Shown piece by piece: positions 5,624 through 58,847 of a DNA stretch of 64,000 nt (the first letter of the stretch is position 1; every line of letters begins with the position of its first letter). The stretch covers positions 62,001 to 126,000 of the forward strand of contig JAHFED010000005.1 of assembly GCA_023248635.1 (NCBI GenBank), written 5' to 3'. Made by a program: the position numbers and the translations under genes. Source of the DNA: Myxococcales bacterium. GTDB lineage: Bacteria > Myxococcota > UBA727 > VGSZ01. The notes under the pieces are model-generated. The model saw only the letters and a program-made list of their open reading frames with translations, did not search any database and was not told where the DNA came from.

Positions 5624-5965
5624 ATGGCCCGCAAGACGGCGACGACGACGACGACCACCAAGACGACGGCCACCGAGGCCCGCCGCATCCAGAGCCTCGA
5701 GCCCCGGGTCGGACGCCAATTGTCTTCCCTCGAAGAAGCGGTGGTCCGCATGCACCATGGCGTCAGCGTGCGGGCCGAGGGCACCCTGCAGAGCAACGCC
5801 GTCACCGACGAGCTGGCCACGGAGCTGCTCGATCGTGAAGTCGACGCCCACATCGCCACCGGCCGCGCCGACGAGCTGCCCGACGTGCCCCAAGAGAGCA
5901 CCAACGGCAACAAGCCCAAGGGCAACGCCAAGTCACAGAAGCTGGTGGCCGCGCTCAAGAAGTGA
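5624..5965 (+). CDS. Small conserved-looking protein of unknown function (113 aa)
   Basis: The ATG at 5624 follows a GGAG ribosome-binding site; an earlier in-frame ATG at 5582 lies inside the hairpin region and is less likely. The N-terminus is a Thr-rich run (TATTTTTTKTTATEA) made by GACGAC-type trinucleotide repeats. It is followed by a helical, charged segment (LSSLEEAVVRMHHGVSVRAE) and a Lys/Asn-rich tail. There are no signal peptide or membrane segments. The stop overlaps the GTG start of the alpha/beta hydrolase (GTGA), so it heads a coupled three-gene unit. I do not recognise the family. Confidence 0.65.
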   Translation: MARKTATTTTTTKTTATEARRIQSLEPRVGRQLSSLEEAVVRMHHGVSVRAEGTLQSNAVTDELATELLDREVDAHIATGRADELPDVPQESTNGNKPKGNAKSQKLVAALKK

Positions 5966-6993
5966 CGCCGCTGCTGGCCTACGACCTGAACGTCGGATCC
6001 GGAGCTCAATCCCGATCCGACGTCGTCGTTTTCGCCCACGGCATCCTCGGCTCTCGTTCCAACTGGAAGAGCTTCGCGCGCAAGTTCTGCGAGAGCAGCG
6101 GCTGCAGCACCCTCGCCGTCGACCTGCGCAACCACGGCCAATCCCACGGGCTCCCGCCGCCCCACAGCGTGCAGGCCGCCGCCGACGATGTCAGCGCGCT
6201 GTGTGCTTCGCTCGGCCTGCGCCCCGTGGTCGTCGTCGGCCATTCCTGGGGAGGCAAAGCGATGCTGCAGATGGCCCTGGACAACGCAGCCGTCGCCGTC
6301 GCCGTCGTCGTCGACGCGCCCTTCGGCCTGCGTCGCTTTGGTCAAGGGGAGGAGATCGATCGGGTGCTCGACGCCGTCGCTGCCGTCTCCCTGCCGGTCC
6401 CGTCGCGCAAGGCGCTGGTCGACATCTTGGTCGCGCGCGGGCTCTCCCTGCCGCTGGCCCAATGGATGACCACCAACCTGAACGAGCAGCTCCGGTGGAA
6501 ATTCGATCTGGCGGCGATCCCGCCGATGTTGGCCTCCTTCGGATCTCTCGATCTCTGGCCGGCTGTGCTCCGCCACCGGCCATCCCTAGCGGTGCATGTG
6601 GTGCGCGGGGGACGCAGCGATCGCTGGTCCGACGGCGAATTGTCTACCGGTTCATCGCCTGGCGGCGCGGAATTCACCGGCAGCGCTTCGCGTGCCGGTG
6701 AATTGTCTACCGGTTCATCGCCTGGCGGCGAGGAATTCACCGGCAGCGCTTCGCGTGCCGGTGAATTGTCTACCGGTTCATCGCCTGGCGGCGAGGAATT
6801 CACCGGCAGCGCTTCGCGTGCCGGTGAATTGTCCACAGGTTCATCGCCTGGCGGCGATGAATTGCGGCGGCTGCACGAAGCGGTGGGCGCTGGCGTCGTC
6901 GTCGAGCACGTGCTGAAAAAGGCTGCTCACTGGGTGCACACCGACGATCCCGAGGGCCTGCTGGCTGTGCTTCTGGCATCGTTGCCGCCGTGA
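5962..6993 (+). CDS. Alpha/beta hydrolase (YbfF-like) carrying an in-frame palindromic-repeat insertion
   Basis: A GTG start at 5962 overlaps the previous stop. The fold is clear from VVFAHGILGSRSNW (oxyanion loop), GHSWGGKAM (nucleophile elbow Ser) and the C-terminal AAHWVHTDDPEGL, which holds the catalytic His. Between VVRGGRSDRWSDG and LRRLHEAVG, where relatives have a short surface loop, there are three and a half 21-residue repeats of the type ELSTGSSPGGEEFTGSASRAG. The acidic triad residue may lie in the SDRWSD segment just before the insertion. Likely an esterase or other hydrolase; the substrate is unknown. The stop overlaps the GTG of the M14 peptidase gene. Confidence 0.85.
   Translation: MTPLLAYDLNVGSGAQSRSDVVVFAHGILGSRSNWKSFARKFCESSGCSTLAVDLRNHGQSHGLPPPHSVQAAADDVSALCASLGLRPVVVVGHSWGGKAMLQMALDNAAVAVAVVVDAPFGLRRFGQGEEIDRVLDAVAAVSLPVPSRKALVDILVARGLSLPLAQWMTTNLNEQLRWKFDLAAIPPMLASFGSLDLWPAVLRHRPSLAVHVVRGGRSDRWSDGELSTGSSPGGAEFTGSASRAGELSTGSSPGGEEFTGSASRAGELSTGSSPGGEEFTGSASRAGELSTGSSPGGDELRRLHEAVGAGVVVEHVLKKAAHWVHTDDPEGLLAVLLASLPP
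6637..6864 (+). repeat. Tandem array of palindromic elements A and B (63-bp unit) inside a coding region
   Basis: Three full 63-bp units start at 6637, 6700 and 6763, followed by a partial unit from 6826. Each unit contains palindrome A (stem TTCATCGCC / GGCGATGAA, loop TGGC, with small variations) and palindrome B (stem TTCACCGGCA / TGCCGGTGAA around a GCGCTTCGCG loop). Because 63 is divisible by three, the hydrolase frame is kept through every copy. Confidence 0.9.
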
Positions 6994-7946
6994 GCTCGCC
7001 CGATTGGCCCTTGGCCCTGCGCCACTACGGCAGCTGCGACGAGCGCGAAGCTCGCCTCGAGCGCGCCGCGGCCACGGCCGGTGCCAACGTCGTCGAATTC
7101 GGGCGCTCAGTGGAAGATCGCCCGCTGCGAGCCGCGGTGGTGCCGTCGTCGTCGTCGTCGTCGGTTCCGAGCGTGTTGGTCGATGCCAACCTGCACGGCA
7201 TCGAATGGATCGGGGCCCAGTGCGCCCTCGGCATCCTCGATGCCCTCGCCGGCCCCCAAGGACGAGCGCTGAGAGAACGAGCCGTCGTCGTCGTCGCCCC
7301 CTGCCTGAACCCCGATGGAGCCGCCCGCACCGAGCGCCAACGCGGCCACGGCACCCTGAAGGAGCTACGCACCAACGCCCACGGCGTCGACCTCAACCGC
7401 AATTTTCCCCTCCCCCACGGCGCTCAGCCCTTCTTCTTGACGGCGACGGGATCTGCCGATCCTGCAGCGGCCACCTACCGCGGCACCGCAGCCTTCTCCG
7501 AGCCCGAGACGCGCGCCGTCGAAGCCCTGGCCGAGCAACACCACTTTCACGCCGTCTTGTCCTTCCATTCCTTCATGGGAACCCTGATCCCCCCCAAAGT
7601 GACGTCGTCGTCGGAGGCTGCGGTCTATCGCTCGCTCTGCCGCACTTTTCGCAAGGGGCAGACCCATTGGTTTGCGCCCACCTTCATGTGCGCGCCCCTG
7701 GATGTCTTCACCGGCGAGCTCGAGGATCATCTGCACCACGTGCACCACGCCTGGTCGTTGACCGTCGAAGTCTTTCCCTTCTGGCGCTCCCTGGCCCAGC
7801 ACCTGTGGGCGCCGTCGATCTTCCAGCGCTTCAACCCCCAAGATCCCGGCGTCGCCGTCGACGACGCTGTTGCTGGCGGCCTGGCCTGCTTGCTGGCCGC
7901 TCTCGATCGCCCGCGGCCCGCGGCCCTGATAGGTTCGACGTCGTGA
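6990..7946 (+). CDS. M14-family zinc carboxypeptidase-like protein
   Basis: A GTG start at 6990 overlaps the hydrolase stop (GTGA). The 318-residue protein shows the M14 zinc motif HxxE in DANLHGIEWIGA (about residues 70-73), NPDGAART, the substrate-binding motif VDLNRNFPL, the third zinc ligand in LSFHSF, and a Glu in SLTVEVFPFW near the C-terminus as candidate catalytic base. No signal peptide is seen, so it may act in the cytoplasm, as do peptidoglycan-peptide or gamma-D-glutamyl-type carboxypeptidases. A six-Ser run (VVPSSSSSSVPS) comes from a GTC trinucleotide expansion. It is the last gene of the coupled unit. Confidence 0.85.
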   Translation: MSSPDWPLALRHYGSCDEREARLERAAATAGANVVEFGRSVEDRPLRAAVVPSSSSSSVPSVLVDANLHGIEWIGAQCALGILDALAGPQGRALRERAVVVVAPCLNPDGAARTERQRGHGTLKELRTNAHGVDLNRNFPLPHGAQPFFLTATGSADPAAATYRGTAAFSEPETRAVEALAEQHHFHAVLSFHSFMGTLIPPKVTSSSEAAVYRSLCRTFRKGQTHWFAPTFMCAPLDVFTGELEDHLHHVHHAWSLTVEVFPFWRSLAQHLWAPSIFQRFNPQDPGVAVDDAVAGGLACLLAALDRPRPAALIGSTS

Positions 7947-7950
7947 GGGG

Positions 7951-8014
7951 CCGCAGCCAAGCGTTCTGGGGGGGCCACGCGGAGGGGCAACGCTGGGCGG
8001 GGACGAGATCATGA
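7951..8014 (+). repeat. Leader hairpin element E, copy 1
   Basis: A segment of about 64 bp directly before and including the start of the FHA gene. It is about 85% identical, by eye, to 15674-15740, which sits at the same place before the DUF1552 gene. The stem is CCAAGCGTT / AACGCTGGG here. The element carries the purine-rich GGGGACGAG ribosome-binding site and the ATCATGA start context. Confidence 0.7.
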
Positions 8015-8484
8015 GCGACAAACCAGAGAGCACGGGATCGTCGGCGACACCGATGGCGACCACGCCCGGGGAAGAGGCGGCGCCGGCGCCGGCGGAAGAA
8101 AAGACCCAGCCCTTTCGACTGCGGGAGCTGGCGGCCAAGATGGCCCAACGTCGACGGCGCAGCACCGCTGCTGAGCTGACCTTCAAGCGGGGCAAGGGTG
8201 CCGAGGTGCGGGTCCCGCTGGAGCGCAGCGAGACCGTCATCGGCCGCGATCCTATGTGCGACATCGTGCTCGCAGAGAGGGCGGCGTCGGCGCGGCATGC
8301 GCGCATTCGTCGGGGACCGGGGGGCTTCTTCGAGCTGGAAGATCTGGGCAGCACCAACGGCGTCCTCGTTGAAGGCGAGCGCGTCGAGAAGATCACCCTG
8401 CTCGACGGCGACACCTTTCAGATCGGCGACACCCGCTTTGCCATCCTGGTGGCCCCCGTCGTCGGCGAAGAGGGGGGCGCGTGA
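8011..8484 (+). CDS. FHA-domain protein
   Basis: A 157-residue protein. The N-terminal 50 residues are Pro/Ala/Glu-rich and basic (LAAKMAQRRRRS). The rest is an FHA domain: VIGRDPMCDIVL (GR motif), ASARHARI (S/H motif) and LEDLGSTNGVLVEG (N-G pair). FHA domains bind phosphothreonine peptides, so a partner phosphorylated by a Ser/Thr kinase is expected; a Hanks-type kinase with T-x-x-L repeats lies at 45-47 kb. The ATG at 8011 lies at the end of leader element E. The stop overlaps the GTG start of the next gene, a membrane protein, so the two are probably coupled. Confidence 0.9.
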   Translation: MSDKPESTGSSATPMATTPGEEAAPAPAEEKTQPFRLRELAAKMAQRRRRSTAAELTFKRGKGAEVRVPLERSETVIGRDPMCDIVLAERAASARHARIRRGPGGFFELEDLGSTNGVLVEGERVEKITLLDGDTFQIGDTRFAILVAPVVGEEGGA

Positions 8485-8870
8485 AGCCGGTTCCTCCCAG
8501 CGCCTCCGTCGACGTCTTTGCGGTACCTGCGGCCCGCGAGAGTGCAGGCTGGCAGACCCTCTCGCTGCTGCCGCTGGCGGCTTTTGTCTTTGCCCTGGTC
8601 GCCTGGGGTGTCACGGGTTTCTTGGCCTACGGCAGCGAGAGCCAAGGCATCGCCGGCGCCACGGTCGCCATGTTCCCCACCGGTTTTGGCACGGCCGGCG
8701 TCATCGCCCGCCGGCTGGAATTGTCGATGGGTTCATCGCCTGGCGGCGATGAATTGGCATCCAAGCGTCCTCCCAGCGCGCTGCGGCTGCTGTTGATCTC
8801 GGGCGCGGGCGGCGTCTTGTCGATGATCCTCTTTGGCGGCTTCATGAGCGCCGTCTGGCCCTCGCTCTGA
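8481..8870 (+). CDS. Small two-to-three-helix membrane protein with an in-frame palindromic element
   Basis: A GTG start at 8481 overlaps the FHA gene stop. The protein has 129 residues and hydrophobic segments around LSLLPLAAFVFALVAWGVTGFLA, IAGATVAMFPTGFGTAGVIA and LRLLLISGAGGVLSMILFGGFM. Between the second and third segments lies ARRLELSMGSSPGGDELASKR, a translated copy of palindrome A. No family is recognised. Coupling with the FHA gene suggests the FHA protein may act at the membrane through this partner, which is inference. Confidence 0.72.
   Translation: MKPVPPSASVDVFAVPAARESAGWQTLSLLPLAAFVFALVAWGVTGFLAYGSESQGIAGATVAMFPTGFGTAGVIARRLELSMGSSPGGDELASKRPPSALRLLLISGAGGVLSMILFGGFMSAVWPSL
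8718..8756 (+). repeat. Palindromic element A, in-frame copy in a membrane-protein gene
   Basis: A 39-bp copy of element A: stem TTCATCGCC / GGCGATGAA with loop TGGC, flanked by GAATT on both sides. It is translated as ELSMGSSPGGDEL, the same frame as in the hydrolase at 6.6 kb. Confidence 0.85.
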
Positions 8871-8918
8871 CGACGGCGCTCCCTTGCGCCCAGCCCAAGG
8901 CGACGCCATTGCGCTGAG

Positions 8919-10868
8919 ATGACCTACCAGGTGCTCGCCCGGAAATACCGGCCGCAGACGTTTCAAGACGTCGTCGGCCAAGACAGCGTCGTGCAGACCC
9001 TGGTGCGCGCGTTGTCGACGGGGCGCATCGCCCACGCCTTTTTGTTCACCGGGAGCCGCGGGGTCGGCAAGACGACCTTGGCCCGCATCCTTGCGCGCTG
9101 CCTGACCTGCGAGCAGGGACCCACCGGCACGCCCTGCGGCACCTGTCGCATGTGCACCAGCATCCAGCAGGGCCAGGCCGTCGACGTCGTCGAAATCGAT
9201 GGGGCCTCCAACAACGGTGTGGAGCAGGTGCGCGATCTCCAAGAGATGGCCCGCTACCTGCCGCAGATGGCGCGCAGCAAAATCTTCATCATCGACGAGG
9301 TGCACATGCTTTCGTCGGGGGCCTTCAACGCCCTGCTGAAGACCCTCGAAGAACCGCCGCCCCACCTGAAGTTCATCTTTGCGACGACGGAGCCCCACAA
9401 GATCCCGGTGACGATCTTGTCGCGCTGTCAGCGCTATGACTTTCGACGCATCCCCTCCGTGACCATGGTGCAGCGGCTCAAGGCCGTGCTCACCACCGAA
9501 TTCCCCGGCCGGGCCCAGGTCATCGACGACGACGGCCTGCAGATCATCGCCAGGGCCGCCGAGGGAGGCATGCGCGATGCCCTCTCGCTCGCCGACCAAG
9601 TGCTCTCCTTCGCGGGTGCTGTCGACGACGCCGTCATCAACTCGGTGCAGGTGACCGAGGCCCTGGGCCTCATCGATCGGCGCACCATCGCCGCCGCCGT
9701 CGACGCCGTCCTCGTTGGCGATGCCCGGGCCGCGCTCACCATCATCGAGGGCGCGTTCTTGCGTGGCTTCGACCTGAAGCAGCTCTTGAGCCTCGTCGCC
9801 GAAGAGCTGCGGCACATCTCGGTCTCTCAATCCTGCGGGACCATCGCGGGCTTCGCGGATCTCGCCGACGACGACGTCTCGCGCATCGATGCCCGCGCCA
9901 AAGGCAGCGATCCCCGCGATGCCCTGCGCCTGCTCGGCATGGCCCTCGACGGCATCGACGTCGTCGCCCGCGCCGAAGACGCCCGCCTCGCGCTCGAGCT
10001 GGTGTTCCTGAAGATGTGCCGTCGGGCTCCCATCGGCGACGCCCTGTTGATCAGCGAAGCCCTGGTGCGCCTCGAACGCCTGAGCAAAGGACAACCCGTG
10101 CCGCCCCTCATCCAGCGCACGCCGACGTCGACGACGGCGCTGGGCATTGCTGTCCAGGCCTTCGCCCGCATCGAGCCGCCGATGGTGGTGCCGTCGCCGA
10201 CGATCCGCTCCGCCGACTCCGCCGCAGCCCCGGCGATCGGCGTTTCGCCAGCACCGGCGACGACGACGACGACCTTGCCGATCGCCCCGCCTTTGGCCGT
10301 CAACGCCGACGGCGAAGACGAACCGCTCATCGCTCACCCGAGCCTGCCGCCAAGCCCGAGCCCCGATGCCGACGACGACGAGCGCAGCGCCAGCTTCGAG
10401 GTCCCGGTCGCGCCAGCTCCGATCGAGCCGGTCGCCGCGGTGCCCGACGACGAAGACGACGACGTCGACCCCCTGGCTGGCTTCGAGCTGCCCGGAGTCG
10501 ATCCCCGCTGGCGCGCCTTCGTGCAGGCCCTGCAGAAAGCGCGCGCAGGTACCTTCAGACTCGGACGCCTGAAAAGCGTGGCCAACGACGTCGTCGAGGT
10601 CTGCTTCGCCACGGGTCATGCCGTGGACGAAGCCACCCGCATGGCCGTGGAACCCGAGGTGCTCGCGCGCCTCGAGAAGTCCTTTGGCAAGAGGCTCAAG
10701 CTGAGCGTGCTGCGCGAAGACGCCGGCGCTGTCTCCGTCCACGATGCTGAAGAGGCGTTGAGGCGCGAGCTCCAAGCGCAGCTCGAGACCCACGCCAAGG
10801 CCCATCCCGTCGTGCAGAAGGCGTTGTCCCTGTTCGGCGGCGAAGTGCGGGCCGTGCGCCGGGTCTGA
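8919..10868 (+). CDS. dnaX: DNA polymerase III subunit gamma/tau
   Basis: The 649-residue protein begins MTYQVLARKYRPQTFQDVVGQ, the classic DnaX start. It has Walker A GSRGVGKTT, the zinc-module cysteines (CLTC, CGTCRMC), the DEVH box in IIDEVHMLS, and SRC (sensor region) in ILSRCQRYDFRRI. Domain III follows. A Pro/Thr/Asp-rich linker (about residues 400-520) precedes a C-terminal domain that binds the polymerase core or DnaB in tau. DnaX is the clamp-loader ATPase of the replisome. The usual ybaB/recR neighbours are absent; the gene is convergent with a propeller-like protein 24 bp away. Confidence 0.96.
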   Translation: MTYQVLARKYRPQTFQDVVGQDSVVQTLVRALSTGRIAHAFLFTGSRGVGKTTLARILARCLTCEQGPTGTPCGTCRMCTSIQQGQAVDVVEIDGASNNGVEQVRDLQEMARYLPQMARSKIFIIDEVHMLSSGAFNALLKTLEEPPPHLKFIFATTEPHKIPVTILSRCQRYDFRRIPSVTMVQRLKAVLTTEFPGRAQVIDDDGLQIIARAAEGGMRDALSLADQVLSFAGAVDDAVINSVQVTEALGLIDRRTIAAAVDAVLVGDARAALTIIEGAFLRGFDLKQLLSLVAEELRHISVSQSCGTIAGFADLADDDVSRIDARAKGSDPRDALRLLGMALDGIDVVARAEDARLALELVFLKMCRRAPIGDALLISEALVRLERLSKGQPVPPLIQRTPTSTTALGIAVQAFARIEPPMVVPSPTIRSADSAAAPAIGVSPAPATTTTTLPIAPPLAVNADGEDEPLIAHPSLPPSPSPDADDDERSASFEVPVAPAPIEPVAAVPDDEDDDVDPLAGFELPGVDPRWRAFVQALQKARAGTFRLGRLKSVANDVVEVCFATGHAVDEATRMAVEPEVLARLEKSFGKRLKLSVLREDAGAVSVHDAEEALRRELQAQLETHAKAHPVVQKALSLFGGEVRAVRRV

Positions 10869-17103: not shown

Positions 17104-17172
17104 GAATTCATCGACAGCGCTTCGCGTGTCGGTGACTTGTCTACGGGTTCATCGCCTGGCGGCGATGAATTC
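17104..17172 (+). repeat. Intergenic copy of palindromes B and A
   Basis: A diverged B palindrome (TTCATCGACA / TGTCGGTGAC around the GCGCTTCGCG loop) is followed by a perfect A hairpin (TTCATCGCC, TGGC, GGCGATGAA). The whole is framed by GAATTCATCG and CGATGAATTC, a 10-bp inverted repeat. It lies just after the DUF1552 stop, outside any gene. Confidence 0.85.
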
Positions 17173-36594: not shown

Positions 36595-37563
36595 TCAGGC
36601 GACGTCGACGACGCTGCGGCAGGCTCTTTCGATGCGCGCCAATTTGTCGACGAGGGGTACATCGCGCTCGGGTTGGCCCGCCGGCAGCAGGTGGCCGTCG
36701 ACGAAGTCCGCGGCGTGCAGCTCGAGAGAGACGTCGTCGGCGGCGCGGGCCGCGGTGCTCAACCAGTGGGCGCAGCCATCGGGCAGGAGGGCCAACATGG
36801 TTCCGGTGAAGGGGATCCCCCAGGGCGCGCTGAGGGGAAACTCGAGCAGTCCATTGGGATGTCGTCGTCGAGGTCGTCGGCCGGGCCAAAACGCGCGGGG
36901 ATCGCCCAGCAGCGAAGCCGAACGTCGACCCGCCAGCGCGGTGCGGGCGATGACCAGAGCGCGGGCGCCAAAGTAGGCCGGCGCCGGCAGCAGGCTTGAA
37001 GACCAGTGCACTCCAGCATCTTTGACGGCGTCGAGGAGGGGGGGCGAGAGGTTGTAGCCGGGTGCACGAAAGCCCCGAGGGGCACAGCCGGTGACAGCAG
37101 CGATGGCGTCGACGGAGGCCCGGATGTCGTCGTCGATGCGCGAGCGGGGCCAGCGCGAAAGATCGTAGGCGTGGCTGTGGCTGTGGCTCATGACCTCGTG
37201 ACCGGCGCGGGCGGCCTCTTCGATCAGGCGCGCATAAGGCTCAGAGCGCAGATCGGCGCCGACGACAAACAGCGTCGCGGTGGCCGAGAGCCGCGCACAC
37301 AGCTCGAGGAAACGGGGCAGGCCCAGCAGCAGCACGTCGTCGTCGTCGTCGCTGGCGCCGGGCGCGTTGACGCCGTGGATCTGGCGGTAACACCAGGCGC
37401 CGTCGAGGTCGATGGTCAGCCGCCGCGGTCCCTTCGCGGGCGCTCTGGGCTCAGGCTCAGCCTGGGGCATGGGCGCAGCGTCCTTCGTCGTCGTTGGCAG
37501 ATCCTCCCTCAGGCCGGCGGGCAATTCTTCGCCGTCAGGCGATGAACCTGTAGATAATTCCAT
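36595..37563 (-). CDS. Polysaccharide deacetylase (NodB-like)
   Basis: Start uncertain: ATG 37563 begins MELSTGSSPDGEELP, where residues 2-14 are a translated copy of palindromic element A; ATG 37470 (MPQAEPEPRAP) gives a 291-residue form. The NodB domain shows RRLTIDLDGAWCYRQ (catalytic Asp region), ATLFVVGADLRSEPY, AARAGHEVMSHSHSHAYDLS (the HxxxH metal motif) and APRGFRAPGYNLSPPL (RxPG). Members remove N-acetyl groups from GlcNAc- or similar sugar polymers. No signal peptide is clear. It is divergent from the phosphate genes across a repeat-rich gap. Confidence 0.8.
   Translation of the reverse strand: MELSTGSSPDGEELPAGLREDLPTTTKDAAPMPQAEPEPRAPAKGPRRLTIDLDGAWCYRQIHGVNAPGASDDDDDVLLLGLPRFLELCARLSATATLFVVGADLRSEPYARLIEEAARAGHEVMSHSHSHAYDLSRWPRSRIDDDIRASVDAIAAVTGCAPRGFRAPGYNLSPPLLDAVKDAGVHWSSSLLPAPAYFGARALVIARTALAGRRSASLLGDPRAFWPGRRPRRRHPNGLLEFPLSAPWGIPFTGTMLALLPDGCAHWLSTAARAADDVSLELHAADFVDGHLLPAGQPERDVPLVDKLARIERACRSVVDVA
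37522..37560 (-). repeat. Palindromic element A at the start of the deacetylase reading frame
   Basis: On the minus strand: GAATTATCTACAGG, then stem TTCATCGCC / GGCGAAGAA with loop TGAC. It is more diverged than the other copies but keeps the reading frame ELSTGSSPDGEEL. It directly follows the ATG at 37563. Confidence 0.8.
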
Positions 37564-37648
37564 CGGCGCTCCCGCCTTCGGCCTCAAAGCCGCATTCTCC
37601 GGTGTTTGGGTGGCGACGACGCTCGCCCCTGCGCGCCAGAGTACTACC

Positions 37649-37922
37649 TGCTTTGCGCCGCTGGCACGGCGCAAAGTGCTTCCTGCTTTGCGCCGCTGGC
37701 ACGGCGCAAGTGCTTCCTGCTTTGCGCCGCTGGCACGGCGCAAAGTGCTTCCTGCTTTGCGCCGTTGGCACGGCGCAAAGTGCTTCCTGCTTTGCGCCGT
37801 TGGCACTGCGCAAGTGCTTCCTGCTTTGCGCCGTTGGCACGGCGCAAAGTGCTTCCTGCTTTGCGCCGTTGGCACTGCGCAAGTGCTTCCTGCTTTGCGC
37901 CGTTGGCACGGCTCAAATGTCG
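37649..37922 (+). repeat. Tandem array of eight palindromes (element D, period 34-35 bp)
   Basis: Eight copies start at 37652, 37687, 37721, 37756, 37791, 37825, 37860 and 37894. Each has stem TTTGCGCCG / CGGCGCAAA (with C-to-T or G-to-T changes in some) around a CTGGCA or TTGGCA loop, and the constant spacer TGCTTCCTGC. The array fills most of the 418-bp divergent gap (37564-37981) between the deacetylase and phosphate genes. Open frames through it are not genes. Confidence 0.92.
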
Positions 37923-45317: not shown

Positions 45318-46964
45318 TCAGTCGTCGTCGCCGTCGACGTAGACGGGCAGATCGAGGGTTGGTCTGGGCGTCATCGCGATCGGGGGCTTGGGCTTTGGCG
45401 CCGTCGGCATCGCCGACAGGAGCATCGTGGGCGCGGCGTCTGCAGACCCGGGCTTCGCCGTCGCGGCGCGCAGCAGAACCGTGGCCGCGGCGTCGACCGA
45501 GGCTGGTTTGGCCGTCGCCGCGTGCAGCAGGACCGTAGGAGCCTCGCCTGAGCCCGGACCGACGGAGGACGCGCGCAACACCACGGTGGGGGCGGCGTCG
45601 CTCGATCCTGGAGCGGTGTGAGCGGCGCTGAGCATCACCGTCGGCGGCGCCATCGACGACGGCGTCGCCATGGCCGGCATGGCGATGGTGCGGGCAGCAT
45701 CGATGGGGGGTGACTCGGCCGTCCGGCCTGAAGTTTGGATGTTCAAGACGCTGGCGTGTCCTGAAAGCTGAGCACTGGCAGCCCGAACGGAGGGCGGTGC
45801 ACGGGCGGCCGCGACGGGGGGCGCGGGACCATCGAGCTCCGAGAGGTCGACGTCTTCTTCGAACACGATGATGGGAATCGACAGCGTCGAAACGGGATCG
45901 ACCTTGGTGCGGGGGGACCGCAGGGCTTGGGTCGGCGACGACACCTCCAGGGCCGATTCGTCGTCGAGGGACCGGGGATCCGGCGGCGGCGGAAGAGGAA
46001 AGGGATGTTGACCCAGCGCCGACGACGCCTGTGCGCCGGCATCGGGGATGGTGGGCACCACGTCGTCGGCGCCGAATTCGCCGGAGACGTCGCCTTGGGG
46101 TTGGGTGGCCATGATCCGCCGGGCCACCTCGGCGCCATCGCCGAGCTTGCTCTCGATCTGAGCAAAGACCTGCGCGAGCTGAGCGGCGTCGCACATCCGG
46201 CGGCTGCGATCGTCCATGCGGAGCATGCTGAAAAAAGTGCGCTCCAAGAGGTGGTGCAGCTGCTCGTCGACGCCCTTGTTCATGATGCGGCCGTCGAGGA
46301 TGGCGGCCAGCACGGCTTGTTGATGCCCCCGTGCCGCCTTGCGCCCTACGGCCGCTTCGAAGAGGGAGACGCCCAGGGCCCAGATGTCGGTGCCAGGCGA
46401 ATAGGACATGCCGGCGAAGAGATCGGGGCTGAGATAGCGAAAGGTGCCCTTCAACATGCCCGTCATCGTCTTGCCGGCAGTGTTCTCGTCGGAGCGCGCG
46501 ATGCCGAGGTCGATGAGCAACACGTGGCCGCGACGGTCCACCAGGATGTTTCCCGGCGTGACATCGCGGTGCAGCATGTGCAGCGGTCGGCCTTCTTCGT
46601 CTTTGGCCTGGTGAATCCAAGCCAGCGCGCTGCAGATCTGTTTGCCGATGTGGGCCACCATCACCGCCGGCAGCGGTCCCACCTGCTCGCGCAGATCTTT
46701 GAGCGAAGCGCCGTCGACGAAGTCGATGACCAGCACCGGTTTTTTGCCGGCGAAGAAAAAATCCCGCGTCTTGACGATGTGGTCGTGGCGCAGCCGAAAC
46801 CCGACGCGAGCTTCGTCTTTGAGGCGGGCGGCGGTCTCTGCTGAAGGGTGCAGCGGAACCTTCAACACCACGAGTTGGTCGTCGGGAGCGCGGCCCAGGA
46901 GCACCTCGCCCATGCCGCCTTCGCCGAGCTTCCGAATCACGCGGTAGGCGCCGAGCATCTCCAT
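45318..46964 (-). CDS. Hanks-type Ser/Thr protein kinase with repetitive C-terminal tail
   Basis: 548 residues. Kinase domain 5-280: glycine loop LGEGGMGEV, Lys35 in VVLKVPL, Glu in KDEARVGF, catalytic HRDVTPGN (Asp134), DLG in place of DFG (152-154), and GTFRYLSPDLFAG. There is no membrane segment. The remainder is Ala/Pro/Ser-rich with regularly spaced T-x-x-L motifs (PTVML, PTVVL, PTVLL, ATVLL, PTMLL, PTLDL), candidate autophosphorylation and FHA-docking sites. A C-type palindrome lies in frame at 45738-45765 (about residues 400-409). Divergent from the PEGA protein. Confidence 0.9.
   Translation of the reverse strand: MEMLGAYRVIRKLGEGGMGEVLLGRAPDDQLVVLKVPLHPSAETAARLKDEARVGFRLRHDHIVKTRDFFFAGKKPVLVIDFVDGASLKDLREQVGPLPAVMVAHIGKQICSALAWIHQAKDEEGRPLHMLHRDVTPGNILVDRRGHVLLIDLGIARSDENTAGKTMTGMLKGTFRYLSPDLFAGMSYSPGTDIWALGVSLFEAAVGRKAARGHQQAVLAAILDGRIMNKGVDEQLHHLLERTFFSMLRMDDRSRRMCDAAQLAQVFAQIESKLGDGAEVARRIMATQPQGDVSGEFGADDVVPTIPDAGAQASSALGQHPFPLPPPPDPRSLDDESALEVSSPTQALRSPRTKVDPVSTLSIPIIVFEEDVDLSELDGPAPPVAAARAPPSVRAASAQLSGHASVLNIQTSGRTAESPPIDAARTIAMPAMATPSSMAPPTVMLSAAHTAPGSSDAAPTVVLRASSVGPGSGEAPTVLLHAATAKPASVDAAATVLLRAATAKPGSADAAPTMLLSAMPTAPKPKPPIAMTPRPTLDLPVYVDGDDD
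45738..45765 (+). repeat. C-type TGGC-loop palindrome, copy C1
   Basis: GTTCAAGACGC, loop TGGC, then GTGTCCTGAA; the full consensus stem would be GTTCAAGACGC / GCGTCTTGAAC. It lies inside the kinase gene, where the opposite strand codes for GHASVLNIQ. Confidence 0.7.
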
Positions 46965-53465: not shown

Positions 53466-53891
53466 TTATAGAGTGTGAATCACGGCTTCGAGGTTGTGTC
53501 CCTCGGGATCGACGACGAAGGCGCCGTAGTAGTTGGGGTGGTAAATCTCGCGCACACCCGGCTTTCCATTGTCCTTACCGCCGGCAGCGATGGCGGCGGC
53601 GTAGAAGGCGTCGACTGCGGCCCGGGATTGGGCCAGCAGCGCGATGTGCAGGTGCGGACGGGTGGCCGTGGTGCCGGTGCTCATCCACAGCTCGGGCTTG
53701 ACACGCCCAAAGCCGATGGCCCGCTGCGGAGGTCCGTGGCCCCCGTCGCCATCACTGTGTTGATGTTCAAGACGCTGGCGCGTCTCGAAGTCCATCAGCG
53801 GGGTGATGCCCAAGGGCGCGAGGGCGGCGGTGTAGAAGGCCTTCATCTTGTCGATGTCGACGACGTTGAAGCCGAGGTGGTCGATGATCAA
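53466..53891 (-). CDS. Glyoxalase/VOC-superfamily protein in the box operon
   Basis: 141 residues: MIIDHLGFNVVDIDKMKAFYTAALAPLGI and a C-terminal NYYGAFVVDPEGHNLEAVIH, the two halves of a VOC domain. Metal-binding candidates are His5, His in RPHLHIALLA and Glu in HNLEAV. The stretch DFETRQRLEHQHSDGDGGHG between them is coded in part by a C-type palindrome and is probably an inserted loop. It is 22 bp before boxB. Role in benzoate metabolism is unknown; an isomerase or lyase is possible. Confidence 0.85.
   Translation of the reverse strand: MIIDHLGFNVVDIDKMKAFYTAALAPLGITPLMDFETRQRLEHQHSDGDGGHGPPQRAIGFGRVKPELWMSTGTTATRPHLHIALLAQSRAAVDAFYAAAIAAGGKDNGKPGVREIYHPNYYGAFVVDPEGHNLEAVIHTL
53762..53789 (+). 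repeat. C-type TGGC-loop palindrome, copy C2
   Basis: GATGTTCAAGACGC, loop TGGC, then GCGTCTCGAA. It lies inside the VOC gene in the same window orientation as C1 and C3, but is read in another frame than C1. Confidence 0.75.
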
Positions 53892-58817: not shown

Positions 58818-58847
58818 GATGGTTCAAAACGCTGGCGCGTCTTGAAC
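58818..58847 (+). repeat. C-type TGGC-loop palindrome, copy C3 (intergenic)
   Basis: GGTTCAAAACGC, loop TGGC, GCGTCTTGAAC, in the divergent gap between the WGR gene and the lipoprotein gene. The stem has one mismatch compared with the consensus. This copy is not in a gene. Confidence 0.75.

Follow-up and report, generated by a model that had tools for sequence, protein, structure and literature searches.

The window examined here, the whole stretch of DNA that was analysed, consists of 64,000 nucleotides from a Myxococcales bacterium (GCA_023248635.1, contig JAHFED010000005.1, positions 62,001 to 126,000, forward strand), to which all coordinates refer unless a contig or locus is named. It contains a gene whose open reading frame continues uninterrupted across a tandem array of two alternating hairpins, A and B (Table 1). 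The original prediction had placed this array within an alpha/beta hydrolase, and the assignment is borne out by a match to Abhydrolase_6 over residues 22-224 (Pfam, E 1.5e-20) together with a C-terminal His block that follows the insert (residues 298-338) and aligns with HWVH of Escherichia coli YbfF. Going by the established fold, the insert comes after the strand that bears the probable catalytic Asp and before the block holding the catalytic His.

Table 1. Features of the hydrolase locus and other palindromic elements in the window and elsewhere in the genome.
Feature	Position	Strand	Basis
Host gene, alpha/beta hydrolase, 343 aa	5962-6993	+	open reading frame, Pfam match, homologues
Tandem array A-B-A-B-A-B-A, flanked by GAATTG (6637-6642 and 6859-6864)	6637-6864	+	repeat finding, orthologue alignment
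A unit 1 (33 bp), hairpin TTCATCGCC/TGGC at 6651	6637-6669	+	hairpin pattern
B unit 1, 30-bp hairpin, compensated GGCA/TGCC variant	6670-6699	+	hairpin pattern, pair counts
A unit 2	6700-6732	+	hairpin pattern
B unit 2	6733-6762	+	hairpin pattern
A unit 3	6763-6795	+	hairpin pattern
B unit 3	6796-6825	+	hairpin pattern
A unit 4, near genome consensus	6826-6858	+	hairpin pattern, consensus
Second intragenic copy, single A in frame (ELSMGSSPGGDEL), in ORF 8481-8870	8717-8757	+	ORF list, hairpin pattern
Intergenic B+A copy	17104-17171	+	hairpin pattern, consensus
Single A copy adjoining a gene start	37523-37560	-	hairpin pattern, gene context
Array of 35-bp palindrome, about 8 copies	37640-37917		
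Family D copies	45742-45765, 53766-53789, 58823-58846		
Further hairpin module beside A/B	L054:12520-12592; right flank L036:19047; right flank C92:126201-126301 (L361)		

Units of 63 bp with two hairpin palindromes had been predicted, and their order proved more regular than claimed, as A and B alternate strictly from end to end. Tandem Repeats Finder (TRF) reports a period of 63 bp with 3.7 copies and 97% matches at 6633-6863, made up of A (33 bp, GAATTGTCTACCGGTTCATCGCCTGGCGGCG plus two variable bases) and B (30 bp). Hairpin A, TTCATCGCC-TGGC-GGCGATGAA, occurs four times in the array and three more times in the window (8732, 17148, and 37522), and was never found in 100 shuffles; hairpin B, AATTCACCGGCA...TGCCGGTGAATT, occurs three times in the array. 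Folded as RNA, the array reaches a predicted -123 kcal/mol (z = -6.5 against shuffles), and Rfam gave no match within 5800-9000 of the window.

Homologues of the hydrolase were found in 48 of 58 relatives by genome search. In two species of the same genus residues 3-226 and 298-338 match adjoining DNA and the array is skipped, and all six aligned orthologues (G002, G001, G005, G003, G017, and G006) pass from the ...RGGRSDRW block directly into a helix beginning ADEQ or similar, exactly where the insert stands here. The net gain is 222 bp, or 74 codons, with GAATTG at both borders. The expectation of about 75 added residues in an unbroken frame was thus close, and the peptide, which orthologues were expected to lack, is missing from every one of the six.

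The original prediction had also staked itself on further copies of A, and the 6.53 Mb genome contains about 250 matches (up to 2 mismatches; the reversed control gave 0), usually accompanied by B. The element unit consists of hairpin B (30 bp) followed by a 33-bp stretch made up of the linker TTGTCTACAGG and hairpin A, with the consensus GAATTCACCGACAGCGCTTCGCGTGTCGGT plus GAATTGTCTACAGGTTCATCGCCTGGCGGCGAT, then GAATT, and copies show sharp GAATT...AATT junctions. Other arrangements include A by itself in 33-bp tandems, B inverted, and A inverted adjoining B. In a covariance model of 68 positions the top score is common to at least 22 loci. The stems are conserved as stems: 96.7% of cells are paired and five pairs are changed on both sides, which none of 500 shuffles reached, and the B copies of the hydrolase array bear the compensated pair GGCA/TGCC. 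A further hairpin module, CTTTGCCCTCA...GGGCAAAG or CTCTGCCCTCAG, is frequently found directly against A or B, with AATT at the boundary, which suggests AATT as a joint between hairpin modules.

The search of the genome and its relatives by covariance model, which the original prediction had proposed, placed the A/B element in two of 193 genomes, namely its own and, sparsely, that of the sister species G001 of the same genus; the counts per genome are lower bounds, as the filters are stricter than in the pattern count of hairpin A and no more than 26 candidates were scored in each genome. The G001 copies are few and diverged, and in two of them the stem has changed in a compensated way, from CGCC/GGCG to CGGC/GCCG. 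An exact-pattern scan of a GTDB-based collection for the diverged form retrieved a single contig, from the MAG of an uncultured Myxococcales bacterium. None of the searched genomes outside the genus showed the A/B pattern. In viral contigs there were 97 matches to a 15-base pattern, approximately the estimated chance level, and none in the loci examined forms the hairpin. Within the genome, A units differ by a mean of 1.26 within arrays versus 1.88 between arrays (1 of 300 shuffles as low), and since units of one array are more alike than those of different arrays, array growth is local. Variants private to the hydrolase array (TCTACCGG, GAGGAATTC, and GGCA/TGCC), with a last A near consensus, are what local duplication of a derived unit would be expected to leave, and they support the predicted tandem growth inside the host gene.

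Most copies lie between genes. In a sample of 1.21 Mb, 43 clusters comprised 29 intergenic, 10 inside ORFs, and 4 at edges; on five contigs picked without regard to gene context, 20 of 25 clusters were intergenic as called by our own gene caller, compared with about 9% non-coding DNA (p = 4e-17). Relative to flanking genes, 28 copies are unidirectional, 10 convergent, and 7 divergent, which is near background (hand-computed chi-square, p about 0.1). At least 13 predicted ORFs in sampled and targeted loci carry the element in an open frame, and frame counts among them are biased because the sense-frame peptide served as the query that located some of them. By family these hosts include AroA, TsaB, LipB, a cardiolipin-synthase-like/VTT protein, an RluA-family protein, a kinase, and a histidine kinase. 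TsaB and LipB orthologues align without the insert, and in the RluA-family protein the element forms a tail past the end of the orthologue. The site in AroA (L048:3079-4446) is less clean as further extra sequence adjoins the insert; this sequence, PAGLTQGPHVYALGLWQ and its neighbours, is also missing in orthologues. ORF 8481-8870 of the window has no Pfam match and is less certain as a gene. Three of the six frames of the consensus unit are stop-free, two sense and one antisense. Those used in genes are hydrophilic (sense EFTDSASRVGELSTGSSPGGD, antisense SPPGDEPVDNSPTREALSVNS; an example of a predicted element-encoded peptide is AGELSTGSSPGGEEFTGSASR), and the other open sense frame, NSPTALRVSVNCLQVHRLAAM, was seen in part only, in L054. 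Unit spacing is a multiple of three in 14 of 14 cases in genes versus 44 of 52 in intergenic DNA, an excess that is not significant (p = 0.13).

A/B is one of several hairpin families that are unrelated to one another, mostly have TTC...GAA stems, and have expanded in this genome; none of them was found in two relatives sampled over 400 kb each. Palindrome family D, TTCAAGACGC-NNNN-GCGTCTTGAA, forms tandems of 33 or 34 bp and has 435 matches here, against 0 in six relatives. Of its 54 sampled clusters, 36 are intergenic and 10 lie inside predicted ORFs. The 35-bp palindrome AGTGCTTCCTGCTTTGCGCCGTTGGCACGGCGCAA has related copies elsewhere in the genome. One may tentatively imagine, with more doubt than confidence, that the expanded families share a single non-RAYT mobiliser and that their mostly codon-multiple units favour the colonisation of genes in frame.

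A candidate mobiliser was sought over the genome. The transposase profile PF01797 gave no match above its cut-off, and at E up to 10 a single one, a 317-aa protein at C9:359453-360406. This protein matches the NCBIfam model of REP-associated tyrosine transposases (RAYT), NF047646, from end to end (E 1.5e-10, short of the cut-off of the model) and ends in a Bac_DnaA_C tail (DnaA-type HTH), the layout of TnpA_REP subclass 2.1 or TIRYT, Y1 transposases with a DnaA-type C-terminal tail (PMC6006769). It differs from these in its catalytic motifs, with LMKSEVRLV at the expected NHVH and WVHLWPVRSG at the expected Y(I/V)xLNP (YI/VHLNP), so that, when the motifs are compared by eye, it has lost the two HUH histidines as well as the Tyr and the Asn. 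Because the HUH and Tyr are lost, DNA cutting is improbable, and judged by its sequence the protein probably cannot cut DNA. An A element stands 16 bp 3' of its stop codon; the estimated chance of such proximity is about 5%, and the closeness to a RAYT-like gene is suggestive only. This one degenerate Y1 relative apart, no intact Y1/RAYT transposase was found in the genome, and the genes between close pairs of copies are ordinary enzymes and regulators with no transposase among them. RAYT-like matches are also present in G001 (C19:1840-2079) and G003 (C13:200534-200812).

The reading we favour, with a probability of about 0.78, is that A/B is a family of species-specific, REP-like dispersed palindromes which landed in the hydrolase, grew there in tandem, and were tolerated in frame. 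That the observation is real, and that the family is new though its kind is known, is well supported. Most of the spread through the genome would postdate the split from the sister species; the element was probably non-autonomous and mobilised in trans, and the agent was most likely a Y1/HUH-type transposase that is now lost, dead, or unassembled. One or more units may have landed in the loop region of the hydrolase and multiplied by slippage or unequal recombination. The insertion would be tolerated because units are a multiple of three, three of six frames are stop-free, and the frames used are hydrophilic; the resulting loop is presumably harmless. The terms mobile and selfish in the original prediction suit the dispersal and the empty orthologous sites; as no active mobiliser was found, movement itself is a supposition drawn from this distribution.

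Spread could also have needed no transposase: errors during replication or repair of hairpins, such as slippage, template switching, and gene conversion, would account for the local arrays as well as for inverted modules and compensated arms. The missing intact Y1 transposase speaks for this, as do the inverted B, the A joined inverted to B, and the compensated B stem of the hydrolase array; however, more than 100 unlinked loci (an estimate) with such sharp junctions are hard to obtain from local errors alone, and we consider this origin unlikely. A host function as a transcribed hairpin in termination or mRNA stability has been proposed for REPs, and copies in genes would then be side effects. 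The strong intergenic preference and very stable folding are in keeping with such a role, whereas the placement of copies with respect to flanking genes departs only weakly from random, near background, and absence or rarity in close relatives argues against a general need, which together leave it quite improbable. It is very improbable that the repeats were selected as a flexible hydrophilic protein linker, as the host proteins are unrelated, the insert sites differ, and most copies are intergenic, even if the frames used are hydrophilic and the third open frame (NSPTALRVSVNCLQVHRLAAM) is seen in part only. An artefact of draft assembly or binning is scarcely credible: some contigs (C4, C21, and C101) do end in arrays, but many long contigs have copies in their interior, with differing unique flanks and in open frames. 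Read as dispersed palindromes tolerated in genes, A/B adds a Myxococcales-type lineage to those with in-frame palindromic elements and offers a young case, with near-identical copies and an almost empty sister species, for studying the spread of repeats. It would illustrate a route from repeats to protein sequence, even inside housekeeping enzymes, and poses the question of what moves the repeats when the only RAYT relative of the genome is apparently dead.

Elements of comparable kind are widely known. GTAG and CGTC REPs have been described from over 80 species, with intragenic copies in several, and in-frame REP clusters encoding 43-82 amino acids occur in Thauera and R. conorii (Di Nocera et al., 2013, PMC3733652). 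The string "Myxococc" is absent from the main text of that paper, and our searches of the open literature found no description of such elements in Myxococcota, one elsewhere being possible. A/B shares with GTAG REPs and with REP dimers or BIMEs the short hairpins, mostly intergenic position, tandem clusters, some intragenic copies, sub-family variants with compensated stems, and CTAC (GTAG on the other strand) in the linker, and like the GTAG superfamily it is a short palindrome of high copy number (about 250 copies, 20 of 25 clusters intergenic). GTAG REPs carry an unpaired terminal GTAG tag, kept in more than 90% of members of most families (PMC3733652), whereas in A/B the GTAG complement is internal, between hairpins A and B, and exact in 59 of 79 linkers (75%); in place of a cognate RAYT with HUH and catalytic Tyr, the genome has the sole degenerate relative. 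A/B therefore does not belong to the GTAG-REP superfamily as defined. With CGTC REPs, which include RPE-4 and RPE-6, it shares a 9-bp stem, AT pairs at the first two positions, a 4-nt loop, and the lack of a dedicated transposase. The stem and loop sizes fit, but the terminal CGTC/TGTC tag and CCA-type tail that flank the 8-9 bp stem of CGTC REPs are not matched, as GTC lies 6 nt from the stem and the CCA tail is absent.

The original prediction had drawn its parallel with the Rickettsia palindromic elements (RPE). Both are small palindromes found between genes and, in frame, in unrelated genes whose orthologues lack them. A/B differs in its two alternating hairpins and codon-multiple units, and its host has a large GC-rich genome of Myxococcales type, whereas that of the RPEs is reduced and intracellular. 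This kind of element is also known outside Rickettsia (PMC3733652), and so is not new as a kind. As an analogy, in which A/B is set beside RPE by description, the parallel holds for the way of working, namely in-frame copies where orthologues are empty.
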